Made by a program: the position numbers and the translations under genes. 5,305 nt of DNA, from contig JAIRTK010000129.1 in assembly GCA_031254955.1 (NCBI GenBank), forward strand, positions 1-5,305, written 5' to 3'. This stretch comes from Opitutaceae bacterium. Its GTDB lineage: Bacteria; Verrucomicrobiota; Verrucomicrobiia; Opitutales; Opitutaceae. Below, piece by piece: positions 1-5,220 of the stretch; the first letter of the stretch is position 1; every line of letters starts with the position of its first letter. The notes under the pieces are model-generated. The model saw only the letters and a program-made list of their open reading frames with translations, did not search any database and was not told where the DNA came from.

Positions 1-2615
1 CCTCCGCCGCCCTCTTCGCCCGCCTCCTCGCCTGCGGCACCTACGACGACCGCCAGCCCCTCCCCTCCTCCCCGCCGCACAAGTATCCGCGCTCCGAATA
101 CGTCTCCTGGTTCCGCGCCCTCCCCGCCGCGCTGCAAACACGCATGGCAGAAACCTGGGGCGCGCCGTCCGCTCACGGCCCCGCAGCCGCGCCCGTCCGC
201 TGGACGCCCGTCGGCAAAAGCCCCTCCTCCCGCCTGCTCCCGCTCCCCGACGAGCCGCACACCGACGACACCCACTTCCATTTCGCCGCGCTCGAACTCG
301 GTCACGTCCTCATCGCCCTCCAGCCCCCGCGCGGCTTCGGCCTGGACCCGGACGCGATCTACCACGCCACCGACCTCGCCCCCACGCACCACTACGCCGC
401 GTTTTACCGCTGGCTCGCCGCCGCGTGGCGCGCCGACGCCGTCATCCATCTCGGCAAGCACGGCACGCTCGAATGGCTCCCCGGCAAAGCCGTCGCGCTC
501 TCCGACGCCTGCGCCCCCGACGCGCTTCTCGACGACCTGCCGCTCTTCTACCCCTTTGTCGTCAACGACCCCGGCGAAGGCGCGCAAGCCAAACGCCGCG
601 CCCGCGCCGTCATCATCGACCACCTCGTGCCGCCGCTCACCCACGCCGACCTGCACGGCCCCGTCGCCACGCTCGCCCGCGTAATCGAGGACTACTACCG
701 CGCCGAGGCGCTCGACCCGCCCAAACTCCCGCTCCTCCAGGCGCAAATCTGGAAACTCGTCCGCGACGCCCGCCTGGTTGACGACCTGCGCGAAATCCGC
801 CGCCAACGCCACGGCGACCACACGCACGAATGGGACGAGCGCCCCGGCGAATCCGGCGCGCCGCGCTCGCTCGAAAAACTCAACGCCCGCGACATGGCCC
901 ACCTCGTCGAAGACCTCGACGCCTACCTCTGCGAACTCGGTCGCGCCCAAATCCGCCACGGCCTGCACATCCTCGGCCAGCCGCCCGAAGGCAAGACACT
1001 CGTTGACCTGCTCTTCGCCCTCACGCGCCACCCCAACGGCGAAATCCCCTCGCTCACGGAAACCCTCGCCGCCGCCGCCGCCCAAAGTGGAAGCGGCGTC
1101 CCGCCGCTTGCCACAAACGGCAAAATACCGCTTCCCCCCTCCGCCACCCAAGCCGCCACCCAAGCCGCCATCGACGACCACGCCCGCGCGCTTATCCGCC
1201 AACTCGTCGAAAACAACTTCAACCCCGAAACCCTCTCCGCGCCCGCCGCCGCCGTTCCCGTCCTCGATTTCATCGCCGCCCGCCTCGCCCCCGCGCTCGC
1301 CCGCACCACCGACGAAATCGACGCCCTCCTCCGCGCCCTCGACGGACGCTACATCCCCGCTGGCCCCGCCGGCGCGCCCAGCCGCGGCATGGCCCACGTG
1401 CTTCCCACCGGACGCAACTTCTACAACGTCGATCCCCGCGCCCTGCCCTCGCGCGCCGCGTGGACCGTCGGCCAGGCGCTCGCCCGCGACGCCATCGAAC
1501 GCCACACCGCCGAGACCGGCGCGCCCCCGGAAAACATCGCGCTCAGCGTCTGGGGCACCGCCACCATGCGCACCGGCGGCGACGACATCGCGCAAGCCCT
1601 CGCCCTCATCGGCGTCCGCCCCCGATGGCACGCCGGCACCAGCCGCGCCGCCGGCTTCGAAATCATCCCGCTCGCCGAACTCGGACGCCCGCGCGCCGAC
1701 GTGACCCTGCGCGTCAGCGGATTTTTCCGCGACGCCTTCCCGCAGCTCATGCGCCTGTTCGACGACGCCGTGCGCGCCGTCGCCGCGCTCGACGAACCGC
1801 CCGCGCAAAACCACGTCCGCGCTCACTGCCTGGCCGACACCGCCGCGCTTGTCGGCGAAGGCATCGACCCCGCCGCCGCCCGCCACCGCGCCGGCTTCCG
1901 CGTCTTCAGCTCCCGGCCCGGCGCCTACGGCACCGGCCTGCTCGACCTCATCGAAAACCACAACTGGCGCGACGCCGACGACCTCGCGCGCGCCTTTCTC
2001 GCCTGGGGCGGCTGGGCCTACGGCGGCGACACGCCCGGCGGCACCGAAGCCGCCGCCGATTTCCGCCGCCGCCTCGCCACCGTCGATCTTGCCCTGCACA
2101 ACCAGGACAACCGCGAGCACGACCTCTTCGACTCCGACGATTATTTCCAATTTCAAGGCGGCCTCATCGCCGCCATCTCCGCCCTCTCAGGCCGCAAACC
2201 CCGCGCCTACCACGGCGACACCTCCGACCCCGCGCGCCCCGTCAACCGCACGCTCCAAGCCGAGGCGCTCCGCGTCCACCGCACCCGCGTCGTGAACCCC
2301 AAGTGGCTCGCCGCCATCCGCCGCCACGGCTACAAAGGCGGGCTGGAGATGGCCGCGACCGTGGATTACATGTTCGGCTACTCCGCCACCGCCGGCGTCA
2401 TCACCGACTGGATGTATGAGGACGCCGCCGAGTCCTACACCAAAGGCGAGTCCCGCGACTTTCTCCGCCACGCGAACCCGTGGGCGCTCCACGCCATCGC
2501 CGAGCGCCTGCTCGAAGCCCGCCAGCGCGGCCTCTGGAACGCAAAACCCGCCACCCTCGCCCACCTGCGCGAAACCCTCCTCGAAACCGAGTCCGTCCTC
2601 GAATCCAAAACATGA
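1..2615 (+). CDS. cobN: Cobaltochelatase large subunit CobN, C-terminal part (5' end outside window)
   Basis: CobN is the large, tetrapyrrole-binding subunit of the cytoplasmic ATP-dependent cobaltochelatase, which inserts Co2+ into hydrogenobyrinic acid a,c-diamide in late-insertion cobalamin synthesis. The open frame starts at base 3 and has no stop back to the window edge. The ATG at 144 is internal, because the codons before it already read like CobN (YVSWFRALPAAL then WGAP). About 870 residues are visible of a family usually about 1,200-1,300 long. Family landmarks are LGKHGTLEWLPGK (450-488), YPFVVNDPGEGAQAKRR (549-599), NREHDLFDSDDYFQFQGG (2109-2162) and NPKWLAAIRRHGYKGG followed by MAATVDYMFGYSA (2295-2387). 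The C-terminus is complete (TGA 2613-2615). BchH/ChlH of magnesium chelatase is the related alternative, but the motifs and the cbiM neighbour favour CobN. The gene carries an in-frame repeat insertion at 1083-1138 and a small tandem duplication just after it, both in a variable segment. Confidence 0.95.
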   Translation, partial: SAALFARLLACGTYDDRQPLPSSPPHKYPRSEYVSWFRALPAALQTRMAETWGAPSAHGPAAAPVRWTPVGKSPSSRLLPLPDEPHTDDTHFHFAALELGHVLIALQPPRGFGLDPDAIYHATDLAPTHHYAAFYRWLAAAWRADAVIHLGKHGTLEWLPGKAVALSDACAPDALLDDLPLFYPFVVNDPGEGAQAKRRARAVIIDHLVPPLTHADLHGPVATLARVIEDYYRAEALDPPKLPLLQAQIWKLVRDARLVDDLREIRRQRHGDHTHEWDERPGESGAPRSLEKLNARDMAHLVEDLDAYLCELGRAQIRHGLHILGQPPEGKTLVDLLFALTRHPNGEIPSLTETLAAAAAQSGSGVPPLATNGKIPLPPSATQAATQAAIDDHARALIRQLVENNFNPETLSAPAAAVPVLDFIAARLAPALARTTDEIDALLRALDGRYIPAGPAGAPSRGMAHVLPTGRNFYNVDPRALPSRAAWTVGQALARDAIERHTAETGAPPENIALSVWGTATMRTGGDDIAQALALIGVRPRWHAGTSRAAGFEIIPLAELGRPRADVTLRVSGFFRDAFPQLMRLFDDAVRAVAALDEPPAQNHVRAHCLADTAALVGEGIDPAAARHRAGFRVFSSRPGAYGTGLLDLIENHNWRDADDLARAFLAWGGWAYGGDTPGGTEAAADFRRRLATVDLALHNQDNREHDLFDSDDYFQFQGGLIAAISALSGRKPRAYHGDTSDPARPVNRTLQAEALRVHRTRVVNPKWLAAIRRHGYKGGLEMAATVDYMFGYSATAGVITDWMYEDAAESYTKGESRDFLRHANPWALHAIAERLLEARQRGLWNAKPATLAHLRETLLETESVLESKT
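1083..1138 (+). repeat. Intragenic palindromic repeat, copy A (inside cobN)
   Basis: This 56-nt segment is 52/56 identical to 4365-4420 in the next gene. It contains a perfect 8-bp hairpin with loop TCC (1091-1098 pairing with 1102-1109). A competing outer stem pairs GGAAGCGG (1089-1096) with CCGCTTCC (1128-1135). Read in the cobN frame it encodes QSGSGVPPLATNGKIPLPP, low-complexity sequence that sits between TETLAAAAA and the IDDHARAL helix. CobN proteins vary in length here, so it is probably a tolerated insertion on the protein surface. Mobility or origin cannot be judged from two copies. Confidence 0.85.
1141..1164 (+). repeat. Two exact 12-bp tandem repeats in cobN
   Basis: The unit CCGCCACCCAAG occurs twice back to back (1141-1152 and 1153-1164), giving the duplicated peptide ATQA-ATQA. 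It directly follows the 56-nt repeat, so it may mark slippage or repair at the edge of that insertion. Confidence 0.7.
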
Positions 2616-2824
2616 ATACACCACCGCCCCCGCCCTTCAAAACAAGTGCACCAGAAAGTGCCGCCACCGTCCGGAATCTTTCCTCTTTCCTCTTTATCTT
2701 TCTCTTTCGTCAGGCACGAGCGGGGAGTTCCAAACGAAGCGAGAAGCCGGCCAGGAAGAAAGATAAAGAGGAAAGAAGAAAGAGGCAGGGACACCTGCTT
2801 CGAGTGCCCCTCTCCCAGTCCTGA
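2612..2824 (+). pseudogene. Probable displaced start of the chelatase ATPase gene (70-codon remnant ORF)
   Basis: An ATG at 2612 overlaps the cobN stop as ATGA, a typical layout for translational coupling. The frame reads MNTPPPPPFKTSAPES, then runs through the purine/pyrimidine hairpin and stops at TGA 2822-2824. MNT plus a proline run plus F is how the complete ATPase gene also starts (MNTSAT, prolines, FPF). The 18-nt string CCACCGCCCCCGCCCTTC at 2621-2638 recurs exactly at 2931-2948 inside that gene. I infer that this was the ancestral start before an insertion cut it off. A 70-residue peptide could still be translated, but its tail looks non-functional: FLFIFLF then basic residues, as the hairpin arms would encode. 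Confidence 0.55.
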
Positions 2825-2885
2825 CATCACTTCCTGTCACCCCCCGTCAAAACATAAACCCATCCGCGCCCCCGCCCTTCAAAAC
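2616..2885. other. cobN-chlID intergenic region: inserted/duplicated segment
   Basis: No gene with family resemblance lies here. The 20-mer CGCCCCCGCCCTTCAAAACA occurs at 2625-2644 and again at 2867-2886, and the 14-mer AAAACATGAATACA occurs at 2607-2620 and 2881-2894. The second 14-mer contains the used start codon. Between the direct repeats lie the large hairpin 2677-2783, a small hairpin GCAGG-GACA-CCTGC (2785-2798) and a 5-bp inverted repeat TGACA/TGTCA (2822-2839). The ATPase frame stays open upstream to a GTG at 2646, but those residues come from hairpin sequence and resemble no chelatase. I see no convincing promoter and no Shine-Dalgarno before 2886. Confidence 0.6.
2677..2783. repeat. 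Long inverted repeat: 26-bp purine/pyrimidine stem
   Basis: Bases 2677-2703 pair with 2757-2783, with a single mismatch (C2683/A2777). The central 17 bp are perfect (2685-2701 with 2759-2775), and the loop is about 53 nt. The left arm is pyrimidine-rich and the right arm purine-rich. Both are built from CTTT(C/A)T or AGAAAG/ATAAAG-type hexamers, with a few 7-nt AGGAAAG units. The same hexamer family forms the array after the ATPase gene. In RNA this would be a strong structure between two chelatase genes. It lacks the U-run of an intrinsic terminator, so read-through with reduced or separately set translation of the downstream gene is possible. Confidence 0.85.
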
Positions 2886-5027
2886 ATGAATACATCCGCC
2901 ACGCCCCCGCCGCCAGTACCACCGCCGCCACCACCGCCCCCGCCCTTCCCCTTCACCGCCATTGTCGGCCAGGACGACCTCCGCCTCGCGCTCCTGCTCA
3001 ACGCCATCGACCCGCGCATCGGCGGCGTCCTCATCCGTGGCGAACGCGGCACGGCCAAAAGCACCGCCGCGCGCGGCCTCGCCGCGCTAGGAAGCGCGGG
3101 CGGCACGCCCGCCCGCCCGCCGGCGGACAAGCCGTCCGCGCTCCACAGCGCCGCCGCCGCGCCCTTCATCGAACTCCCCCTGGGCGCGACCGAGGACCGT
3201 GTCATCGGCGCCCTCGACCTCGAACCCGCCCTCCGCGAAGGCCGCCGGCGGCTCCGCCCCGGCCTGCTCGCGCAAGCCGACGGCGGCGTCCTCTACGTGG
3301 ACGAAGTCAACCTGCTCCCCGACCACCTCGTTGACCTGCTCCTCGACGCCGCCGCCAGCGGCTGCGTGCGCGTCGAGCGCGACGGCATCTCCGAATCCGC
3401 CCCCGCGCGCTTCATCCTCATCGGCAGCATGAACCCCGAGGAAGGCGAGCTTCGCCCCCAATTCCTCGACCGCTTCGGCCTCTGCGTGCGCGTCGCCACG
3501 CACGCCGACCACGCGCTCCGCGTCGAGACCCTCCGCCGCCGCCTCGCCTACGAGGCCGACCCGCGCGCATTCGTCAACGCCGAGGAAACATCCGCGCAAC
3601 AACTCCGCGCCCGCCTCGCCGCCGCCCGCGCCCGCCTCCCTGCGATTCCGCTCGACGACGCCACCCTCGCCCAAGCCGCCGCGCTTTGCGCCGCCCTCAA
3701 ACTCGACGGCGCGCGCGGCGACCTCGCCCTCGTGCGCGCCGCCCGCGCCATCGCCGCGTGGGAAAACGCCCCCGCCATCACCGACGCGCACCTCCGCCAC
3801 GCCGCCCGTCTCGCGCTCCCCCACCGCACCCGCAAAAAACCCTTCGAGCCGGTAAAAATGGAAACAACTTCCAGCCGCTTTGACACCGCACCCACCCACC
3901 TCCCAAAACAAAACGCCGCCCCCACCCACCCCAAAAAACAAGACGCCGCCACGCCCTTACACGAACAAGACGCCGCCGCCACGCCGCCGGGGAACGCACA
4001 CGTCCCGCGTGCCGGCGCGGGCGTCCCGCCCGTGCCTCTGTCCTGCGGAAACGCCGGACAAAACCCGCAAAACGCGGACACTCCCCAACCTGACGCCGAC
4101 GCCACCGTCACCGAAAAAGAAATACCCCCGCCGGACGCCGCCGCCATCCCTGTCCCCGGAGCGATTCACCTCGCCCTCGACACGCCGCCCCCCGCCCGCG
4201 CCACCGCCCCCGGACACCGCGCCGCCGCCGGACGCCGCGACACCGCCGCGCGACCCGCCGGCGAAGTCATCCGCAGCGCGCCCTTGCGCGAAGGCGGCTC
4301 GCTTGCCCTCGCGCCCACGCTCACCGCCGCCGCCGCGCGCACTTCAAGCGATGCCGTCGCCGGCCAAAGTGGAAGCGGCGTCCCGCCGCTTGTCACAAAC
4401 GGCAAAATGCCACTTCCACCCGCCCCCGCGCTCGCCCTCCACCGCGCCGACCTCCGCCAGCACGAACGCGCCAAACGCGGCGCGGCGCGCGTGCTCTTCA
4501 TCGTCGATGCCAGCGGCTCGATGTCCGCGCAACACCGCCTCGCCCTCGCCAAAGGCGCGGCCACCGGGCTGCTCGCCGGCAGCTACCAAAAACGCGACGA
4601 AGTCGCCCTCCTCCTCTTCCACGGCGAAACCGCCACGCTCGCCGTGCCCTTCACCCGCGACGTTGACCGCGTGGAACGCGCCCTGCGCGACGCGCCCACC
4701 GGCGGGCGCACCCCGCTCGCCGCCGCGCTCACCGACGCCGCCGCGCTGCTTGCCGCCCGCGGCCCCGCGCTCCTTGTCGTGTTCACCGACGGACGCGCCA
4801 ACGTCCCGCACCATCCCGGCGCCGACCCGTGGCGGGAAGCCCTCGCCGCCGCCCGCGCCCTCGCGCCCGCCGCCGCCGGCGCGCTCGTCGTCGATTGCGA
4901 GACCGGCCCCGTCGCCCTCGGACGCGCCCGCGACCTCGCCGCCGCCCTGGAGGCCGAATGCGAACACCTCGCCGCGCTCGACGAACCCGCCCTCACGCTC
5001 CGCATCCGCAACCAGCTCGCCTCCTAA
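2886..5027 (+). CDS. chlID: Fused ChlI/ChlD-type (AAA+ and VWA) cobaltochelatase ATPase subunit
   Basis: This is the predicted motor subunit that works with CobN. ATP hydrolysis by its AAA+ ring drives cobalt insertion, and its VWA domain contacts the large subunit. The protein has 713 residues from the ATG at 2886. Residues 7-20 are mostly proline, and the ChlI fold begins at FTAIVGQDDL. Walker A is GERGTAKST (52-60), Walker B is VLYVDE (135-140), sensor-1 is the SMNPEEGELRP region (N183), and LDRFG (194-198) follows with R196. The lid ends near residue 322 (RKKPFEP). A low-complexity linker runs to about residue 505. The VWA MIDAS is intact: DASGS (D541, S543, S545), T609 and D635 in FTDGRAN. 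Fused homologues are usually somewhat shorter; the extra length lies in the linker and repeat insertions. The GTG at 2646 is rejected as the start because it reads through the hairpin. Magnesium chelatase is the alternative, but cobN and cbiM on either side argue for cobalt. Confidence 0.92.
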   Translation: MNTSATPPPPVPPPPPPPPPFPFTAIVGQDDLRLALLLNAIDPRIGGVLIRGERGTAKSTAARGLAALGSAGGTPARPPADKPSALHSAAAAPFIELPLGATEDRVIGALDLEPALREGRRRLRPGLLAQADGGVLYVDEVNLLPDHLVDLLLDAAASGCVRVERDGISESAPARFILIGSMNPEEGELRPQFLDRFGLCVRVATHADHALRVETLRRRLAYEADPRAFVNAEETSAQQLRARLAAARARLPAIPLDDATLAQAAALCAALKLDGARGDLALVRAARAIAAWENAPAITDAHLRHAARLALPHRTRKKPFEPVKMETTSSRFDTAPTHLPKQNAAPTHPKKQDAATPLHEQDAAATPPGNAHVPRAGAGVPPVPLSCGNAGQNPQNADTPQPDADATVTEKEIPPPDAAAIPVPGAIHLALDTPPPARATAPGHRAAAGRRDTAARPAGEVIRSAPLREGGSLALAPTLTAAAARTSSDAVAGQSGSGVPPLVTNGKMPLPPAPALALHRADLRQHERAKRGAARVLFIVDASGSMSAQHRLALAKGAATGLLAGSYQKRDEVALLLFHGETATLAVPFTRDVDRVERALRDAPTGGRTPLAAALTDAAALLAARGPALLVVFTDGRANVPHHPGADPWREALAAARALAPAAAGALVVDCETGPVALGRARDLAAALEAECEHLAALDEPALTLRIRNQLAS
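3091..3139 (+). repeat. GC-rich double hairpin insertion in the P-loop domain
   Basis: Two adjacent hairpins: GCGGGCG (3096-3102) pairs with CGCCCGC (3106-3112) across loop GCA, and GCGGAC (3123-3128) pairs with GTCCGC (3134-3139). The encoded stretch GSAGGTPARPPADKPSALHS lies between the helix after Walker A (GLAAL) and the conserved strand FIELPLGATEDRV. ChlI-family proteins carry a variable insert at this place, so the domain should tolerate it. Its hairpin core resembles the cores at 1091-1109, 4014-4036 and 4373-4391, but no near-identical copy exists in the window. Confidence 0.5.
3891..3980 (+). repeat. Three imperfect ~30-bp tandem repeats in the AAA-VWA linker
   Basis: The linker repeats PTHLPKQNAA (3891-3920), PTHPKKQDAA (3921-3950) and TPLHEQDAA (3951-3977), with the common core K/E-Q-N/D-A-A. 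The DNA is more A-rich than its surroundings and includes a TTA codon, unusual in this background. This fits a disordered, fast-changing spacer that has grown by tandem duplication. Confidence 0.65.
4014..4059 (+). repeat. Pair of GC-rich hairpins in the linker (GVPPV-type repeat)
   Basis: Bases 4014-4023 pair with 4027-4036 (10 pairs including one G-T wobble) around a TCC loop. Next, 4040-4047 pairs with 4052-4059 (7 of 8) around a GAAA loop. The frame reads RAGAGVPPVPLSCGNAGQN. The core GGCGTCCCGCC matches that of the two 56-nt repeats, and the peptide GAGVPPV parallels their GSGVPPL, so this is probably a relative of the same palindromic family. Confidence 0.55.
4365..4420 (+). repeat. Intragenic palindromic repeat, copy B (inside chlID)
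   Basis: Second copy of the 56-nt repeat at 1083-1138, differing at four bases. The inner 8-bp hairpin with loop TCC is unchanged (4373-4380 with 4384-4391). The outer stem here pairs GTGGAAG (4369-4375) with CTTCCAC (4413-4419). A GGCA-AAA-TGCC hairpin (4401-4411) lies between. It encodes QSGSGVPPLVTNGKMPLPP in the gene's frame. It sits between the conserved TLTAAAAR stretch and LALHRADLRQHERAKRGAA, just before the VWA domain. Confidence 0.85.
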
Positions 5028-5039
5028 CCGCGCTCCCAA

Positions 5040-5220
5040 TCGTTCTCGTTCTCTTTCTCGTTCTCGTTCTCGAAACGCCGCGAAACCCAAAGAGAGAACG
5101 ATAAAGATAAAGAGAAAAAGAAAGAGAAAGATAACGAGAACGAGAACGCTAAAGATAAAGAAAACGATAAAGAGAACGAGAACGAGAACGAGTAAGAGAA
5201 CGATTAGGAGAACGATAAAA
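5040..5220. repeat. Inverted hexanucleotide array (5 reversed + 21 forward units)
   Basis: From 5095 to 5220 the sequence divides without any slip into 21 six-base units, mostly AGAACG, ATAAAG, AGAAAG and single-base variants (consensus A-K-A-A-M-G). From 5041 to 5070 there are five units in the opposite orientation (CGTTCT x4, CTTTCT x1). A spacer at 5071-5094 separates the two. The arms can pair: 5040-5056 is perfectly complementary to 5169-5185 (17 bp), and other registers are possible. It occupies most of the gap between chlID and cbiM. No coding sequence is credible here. It may act as a transcript-end structure or protein-binding array, or may be a mobile or expanding repeat. Confidence 0.88.

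Follow-up and report, generated by a model that had tools for sequence, protein, structure and literature searches.

Dispersed GTGG-headed REP elements read mainly in one Gly/Pro-rich register, with copies in the cobN and chlID genes of an Opitutaceae bacterium

The neighbouring genes cobN and chlID of an Opitutaceae bacterium each carry, in frame, a copy of the same 56-nt palindromic element. Both copies lie in the window studied here, which is the whole stretch of 5,305 nt of contig JAIRTK010000129.1 (assembly GCA_031254955.1). The contig belongs to a metagenome-assembled genome (MAG) of 574 contigs that is 69% complete, called the host genome below (G000). The element is a dimer of repetitive extragenic palindromic (REP) units that are dispersed in this and related genomes. 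These REPs are probably filtered by translation, persisting in cobN and chlID through a codon register that supplies a Gly/Pro-rich linker. The kind of element is already known, a REP of the GTAG superfamily. What the analysis adds is the dominance of a single register among the in-gene copies and the presence of different REP families at the same linkers.

Anatomy of the element

A preliminary description of this DNA, made from the letters alone, had matched positions 1083-1138 with 4365-4420 at 52 of 56 bases, in the same frame and with the same peptide. Direct reading and realignment gave the same result, with 4 of 56 bases differing between the copies and 53 of 58 identical when the comparison is extended to 58 nt. 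In the cobN frame and in the chlID frame alike, the element is translated as QSGSGVPPL-x-TNGK-x-PLPP. The invariant inner hairpin (1091-1109 and 4373-4391, AAGCGGCG-TCC-CGCCGCTT) and the pairing of 9 of 10 outer-arm positions in each copy also held as described. The 56-mer is better described as a pair of 23-nt REP units in inverted orientation, with their heads outward and 5 nt between them. The unit, named family A, reads GTGG-AAGCGGC-N-TCC-N-GCCGCTT, with an 8-bp stem and a 3-nt loop. The pair closing the loop differs among family A copies (G-C, A-T or T-A), as expected if the hairpin matters. Units measure 23 nt, dimers 51 nt and the window element 51-56 nt. The REP features of the window are as follows.

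1083..1138, + strand: family A REP head-to-head dimer in cobN, read QSGSGVPPLATNGKIPLPP (residues 361-379)
1087..1109, + strand: first unit of the cobN dimer, with GTGG as its head, AAGCGGCG/CGCCGCTT as its stem and TCC as its loop
1115..1137, - strand: second, inverted unit of the cobN dimer, decayed, with a GGGG head and 3 mismatches
4365..4420, + strand: family A REP head-to-head dimer in chlID, read QSGSGVPPLVTNGKMPLPP (residues 494-512), with an orthologous copy in T. mucosus
4369..4391, + strand: first unit of the chlID dimer
4397..4419, - strand: second, inverted unit of the chlID dimer, with 2 mismatches
4016..4038, - strand: second REP-like unit in the chlID linker, family B, 2 mismatches, read RAGAGVPPV (counterpart in the G001 gene, RAGTGVPPV)

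Dispersal and families

Units were searched with a pattern allowing at most 2 mismatches, and the reversed pattern served as control. Family A occupies 30 places in the host genome, 21 in another Opitutaceae MAG (G001) and 12 in Termitidicoccus mucosus (G002), with 0, 0 and 1 places for the controls. Since 30 places stand against none for the reversed pattern in the host genome, and the single-strand DNA folds of the two copies lie at z -4.4 and -4.0 against shuffles, the window repeat is not a chance occurrence. The earlier proposal of a dispersed REP-type element is thus borne out, the genome holding far more than the two copies from which it started. A similarity search of the host genome returned 51 matches with E up to 10, both window copies counted (40 of 99 first-look candidates were scored). 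A sister family B, GTGG-CACGGGC..GCCCGTG, was found at 72, 39 and 166 places in the host genome, G001 and G002 (controls 0, 0 and 1), and a family C has the stem CATGGGC.

Features of the GTAG superfamily are present: an unpaired GTGG, the variant of GTAG, at one end and immediately followed by a stem, 8 bp long where 5-13 are allowed, a loop of 3 nt where 2-20 are allowed, and many dispersed copies. Perfect hairpins numbered 116 with a GTGG head and between 0 and 11 apiece with 16 other heads, in a set of loci biased by having been picked mostly with GTGG patterns. The species-representative collection has exact family A dimers in 48 stretches, of which 46 are titled Verrucomicrobia, Opitutales, Akkermansiaceae, Prosthecobacter and similar, one Planctomycetota and one a Deltaproteobacteria MAG.

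Codon register of the in-gene copies

A census of families A, B and C at no more than 2 mismatches gave 172 clusters, 51 in the host genome, 22 in G001 and 99 in G002. To call the coding frame, the element was left out and its two 240-nt flanks were scored with a codon model that had been trained on the fetched loci. Registers are named h for head-first or t for tail-first, followed by the codon phase. By this means 45 clusters lie in genes with a frame that stays open through the element, as the preliminary description had supposed such an element able to do; a coding flank was called on one side for 37 and on neither side for 84, 4 are of other kinds and 2 sit at an edge.

When frame and orientation were tabulated, a step the same description had recommended, the first unit was in register h1 (GxGVPPx) in 36 of the 45 in-gene clusters. 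The others were h0 (VEAASRR type) in 5, t2 (SGGTPLP type) in 3 and t0 (KRRDAAS type) in 1, and no in-gene cluster began with h2 or t1. Against an expectation of 1/6, the h1 count has a p of 1.7e-20 with clusters treated as independent, a few being homologous. Among single-unit clusters h1 accounts for 20 of 25, and for 18 of 22 after homologous duplicates were removed by hand. Register h1 leads at 12 of 12 caller settings.

From 12,000 simulated insertions, 5,001 in-gene calls were obtained, of which 917 (18%) were h1; the calls for h0, h1, h2, t0, t1 and t2 numbered 728, 917, 854, 841, 796 and 865. The simulated registers are fairly even, so the bias is not made by the caller.

Selection on the peptide or bias at insertion

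The register counts can be accommodated by the following sequence of events. The GTGG-tagged dimer was probably dispersed through REP-type copying. Insertion may have been roughly random, selection on the encoded peptide then leaving mainly h1 copies, and insertions in other frames were likely selected against. The copies in cobN and chlID would persist because register h1 adds a Gly/Pro-rich, mostly uncharged linker that is predicted to be flexible. Linkers of multi-domain proteins, such as the CobN loop and the ChlID AAA-VWA linker, would be permissive sites at which REPs come and go.

Several observations weigh against this account. By eye, one or two Asp residues occur in 8 of the 36 h1 readings, for example GTGDSPV, so the peptide is mostly and not strictly uncharged. 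Register t2 (SGGTPLP) is uncharged and stop-free, yet it comes first in so few clusters that peptide chemistry alone is insufficient for the orientation bias, and a further cause is needed. The observed in-gene share of 26% compares with 42% in the simulation, which is the fair expectation rather than the 69.5% coding fraction, and indicates a moderate avoidance of genes, no more than that. The bias is weaker elsewhere: at a threshold of 8, looser than that of the census, 18 of 49 family A dimers in other genomes lie in genes, 10 in h1, 4 in h0 and 4 in h2. Three of these four h2 dimers come from one MAG, one of the 18 (L279) is the G001 census copy, and two pairs look homologous. The genome G005, which we take to be O. 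terrae PB90-1, carries exact family B and C units at 264 places for the two families together. Two of its 67 B/C clusters lie in genes, both in h1, compared with 45 of 172 in the three-genome Termitidicoccus-group census, and these are too few for G005 to replicate the register bias.

The evidence on mobilisation belongs with these points. Hits to the Y1-type transposase family PF01797 were found in 29 of 38 genomes, with 6 in the host genome, 7 in G001 and 7 in G002. The REP-associated model NF047646 was matched by all 6 proteins tried that resemble REP-associated tyrosine transposases (RAYTs), 2 of them above cut-off. None of 20 fetched Y1-transposase loci, several of which end at contig ends, is clearly flanked by A, B or C REPs. 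Near them, a B unit within the 2-mismatch limit lies about 0.4 kb from the open reading frame (ORF) of locus L178, and two loci have units with 3 mismatches. The dimer has inverted ends, and neither clean insertion edges nor a target duplication can be read from the alignments; the duplication is unreadable because the linkers are hypervariable. Of the preliminary label, REP-like or like a miniature inverted-repeat transposable element (MITE), the first part therefore stands, while MITE-like transposition is not borne out, since none of the 20 transposase loci is plainly flanked by these REPs and a target duplication cannot be defined.

The register bias could instead be set at insertion, with a transposase picking a target word or strand that, in GC-rich genes, occupies a single codon phase, without selection on the peptide. 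This is unlikely, though the likeliest of the alternatives. Orientation is skewed as well, 22 of 25 single-unit in-gene clusters being head-first, which the chemistry of the peptide alone does not account for. Single units adjoining genes lean in the same direction (12 of 19 head-first, not significant). The bases 5' of the head tend to AAR/CAAR in family A and to GGWTYGN in B and C, in coding and non-coding copies alike. However, nine words taken from the elements' 5' edges as target remnants predict an h1 share of 6-28%, for example 27% for CCAA[AG] and 6% for GG[AT]T[CT]GN. The strand has no clear tie to the replication halves in G002, where the best split is 34 of 52 single units, and replication-strand orientation was rejected as unconvincing as a cause of the orientation bias. 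The two registers missing as first unit, h2 and t1, spell peptides rich in W, R and H. The argument from their avoidance is qualified by h2, which turned up once at two other caller settings and also among the dimers elsewhere.

A change of GTAG to GTGG was also considered as a stop-removing step that opened genes to REPs. It was rejected on logical grounds: only h2, which is not the register used, would bring the TAG stop into frame.

Chelatase linkers in relatives and homologues

The chlID dimer is found at the identical site, with the same flanks, in T. mucosus, so it likely predates the split between the two genomes. The T. mucosus sequence is a 7.82-Mb contig, and it contradicts an origin of the insertion as an artefact of a fragmented MAG, a reading that the incompleteness of the host genome would allow and that is hardly credible. 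At the cobN site, where the host genome has the A dimer, a B/C cluster (GTGVPPV...GRDARATQ) stands in T. mucosus. In G001 cobN no REP was seen at the A-dimer site, and a different palindrome lies downstream, by eye. In a further relative (proteins P0003 and P0124) the chlID site is occupied by another REP-type peptide, and cobN has one that resembles a remnant.

The REP-type peptide pattern was present in 3 of the best 120 CobN homologues and 4 of the best 120 ChlID homologues, both queries counted; one ChlID match, P0153 (GTGAPPA), looks like chance. With the distant homologues examined lacking the peptide and relatives differing in REP content, sequence comparison indicates that the peptide is an insertion of the Opitutaceae lineage at hand and that the chelatase linkers appear to turn over. 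The insertion proposed at the outset accordingly survives the comparison with distant homologues. That the peptide is instead an original part of the proteins, or was duplicated locally between cobN and chlID, is very improbable: it is absent from homologues beyond near relatives, dozens more copies lie in the genome, many outside genes, and similarity drops at the element edges. The two window copies do share one substitution that is absent from all five further full dimers in the comparison. As a sign of recent copying from chlID to cobN, a single substitution private to these two among the seven dimers was judged too weak.

The ChlID homologue P0123 reads QSGGGGMPLPP, as expected after an in-frame internal deletion of a family A dimer.

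The repeat might also be kept for a function in DNA or mRNA, such as an RNase site or relief of supercoiling, that coordinates the two chelatase genes, with the peptide as a by-product. The predicted folds of the window copies are stable, with z of -3.8 and -6.0 for RNA; RNA prefers the long outer stem and DNA the separate hairpins. The neighbouring position of cobN and chlID on one strand would suit such a role as well. Yet the palindrome would be equally good in any codon register, and one dominates. The family differs at the T. mucosus cobN site, G001 has no REP seen there, and copies occur in many unrelated genes. This explanation is accordingly quite improbable.

Predicted structure of the linkers

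AlphaFold2 models were built with 40 homologues. In ChlID the element (494-512) lies within a stretch of predicted local distance difference test score (pLDDT) below 50 at residues 491-512, and the adjoining helix ends at 492. In CobN most of the element (361-379) lies in a stretch with pLDDT <50 (363-382) that has helix 351-361 before it and helix 383-403 after it. The CobN model is of a fragment, with a mean pLDDT of 66.9, ten low stretches and 229 of 870 residues below 50. The REP-coded peptides thus fall in low-confidence loops that are predicted to be flexible, the indication being weak for CobN. The ready-made flexible peptide suggested by the preliminary description fits these models, being Gly/Pro-rich and below 50 almost throughout in both proteins.

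Other genes carrying the repeats

A Pfam scan covered 38 of the 45 ORFs that carry an element, leaving aside three window entries, three chelatase orthologues and one duplicate locus; 37 of the 38 were matched, 35 above the curated cut-off. Several elements sit between domains of the host protein. In the 2-oxoacid dehydrogenase E2, the linker between the E3-binding and catalytic domains holds a B unit in T. mucosus and A and B units in G001. In the Clp-type protein L341 the element lies between AAA modules. A UvrA-like gene of G001 (L252) carries an element in register h0.

The adjacent E2 and E3 genes of T. mucosus (L354:1650-4499) each have a family B unit read GTGDSPV. This repeats the double hit seen in the chelatase, and special targeting need not be invoked for two insertions in one complex. 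The earlier view that the hit on two partner proteins was special does not hold, given an older chlID copy, another family in T. mucosus cobN and many unrelated hosts.

What a given linker holds differs within orthologous pairs of 82-91% protein identity. In a TPR protein (L212/L327) a second stretch is present in T. mucosus and carries a family C unit (GMGVSPM); the host genome lacks it, in an alignment badly framed on the host-genome side. Differing linkers are also seen in the orthologues MG10 (L234/L318), DUF2229 (L101/L361/L362) and ABC-F (L104/L365/L366). The broader proposal is that REPs of the Termitidicoccus lineage are a genome-wide source of ready-made linkers. Different families would converge on the register GxG[V/I/D]xPx, in one orientation and at the same inter-domain loops. 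REP turnover would then be a main route of linker evolution in conserved enzymes and their partner subunits, with protein-level selection shaping which REPs persist. This is put forward tentatively and is less likely than not.

Coding linkers in L361, L362, L365 and L093 contain other short repeats, with SKIEN from AAATCGAAAATC and PHSAF from CATTCCGCATT.

Relation to known elements

GTAG-superfamily REPs have been described with a GTGG form in O. terrae (the GTAG-20 family), and REPs lie inside ORFs, most of all for GTAG repeats in O. terrae (PMC3733652). Flexible linkers and loops were proposed there as REP-tolerant sites, and uvrA was reported as an O. terrae ORF with a REP. The superfamily was linked to Y1/RAYT transposase genes, which are not required of every family (PMC3733652). 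Family A resembles these REPs in its head tetranucleotide, short perfect stem, short loop, head-to-head dimers and intra-ORF copies. It has its own stem, AAGCGGC, which may set it apart from the families described there. A register bias of REPs is not mentioned in the part of PMC3733652 consulted or in the titles and abstract starts of the literature searched.

Rickettsia palindromic elements (RPEs) are likewise palindromic repeats found in frame in unrelated conserved genes, and in one protein tested the effect was thought neutral or slightly detrimental (PMC2229807, PMC3767692). By their description RPEs are Rickettsia-specific and 105-146 bp long, whereas the Opitutaceae elements are 23-nt units and 51-nt dimers and fall outside that size. 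Two inverted REPs forming one dispersed unit are also known as REPINs and bacterial interspersed mosaic elements (BIMEs) with RAYT transposases (PMC3116915, PMC2817692), and RAYT-like genes occur in the present genomes. Here, in contrast, the 20 loci fetched lack clear flanking A, B or C units, as given above.

Palindromes called extragenic are usually taken as non-coding; in the present census about one quarter of clusters lie in genes, and four in five of these begin in a single register. The register counts provide a countable test of selection filtering insertions by the encoded peptide. The linker differences amount to a natural experiment on how linkers are made and replaced in conserved multi-subunit enzymes. 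For annotation, GSGVPPL or GRDARAT peptides in these Opitutaceae proteins are likely repeat-derived.

Host genes and window context

The two host genes are neighbours on one strand of the window.

3..2615, + strand: cobN, cobaltochelatase large subunit, 5' end beyond the window (NCBIfam TIGR02257; relative, PDB 7c6o)
2886..5027, + strand: chlID-type fused AAA/VWA chelatase subunit, putative cobaltochelatase (NCBIfam TIGR02442 and TIGR02030; relative, PDB 1g8p)

In the NCBIfam scan the TIGR02257 match of cobN is above the curated cut-off. The TIGR02442 match of chlID, at 614 bits against 779, is below it, and the TIGR02030 match is likewise under its cut-off. An Rfam scan of the window gave no match at gathering score. 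Intergenic AG-rich and CT-rich arrays of the GAGAACGATAAAG type at 2677-2783 and 5039-5216 form long inverted repeats, and the T. mucosus chlID coding linker contains similar AG-rich repeats (EENEKDKEERIKNP). A further CobN-family gene stretch of the host genome (L096, PF02514) also carries a family A dimer (ASGVPPLAANGKMPLPP).

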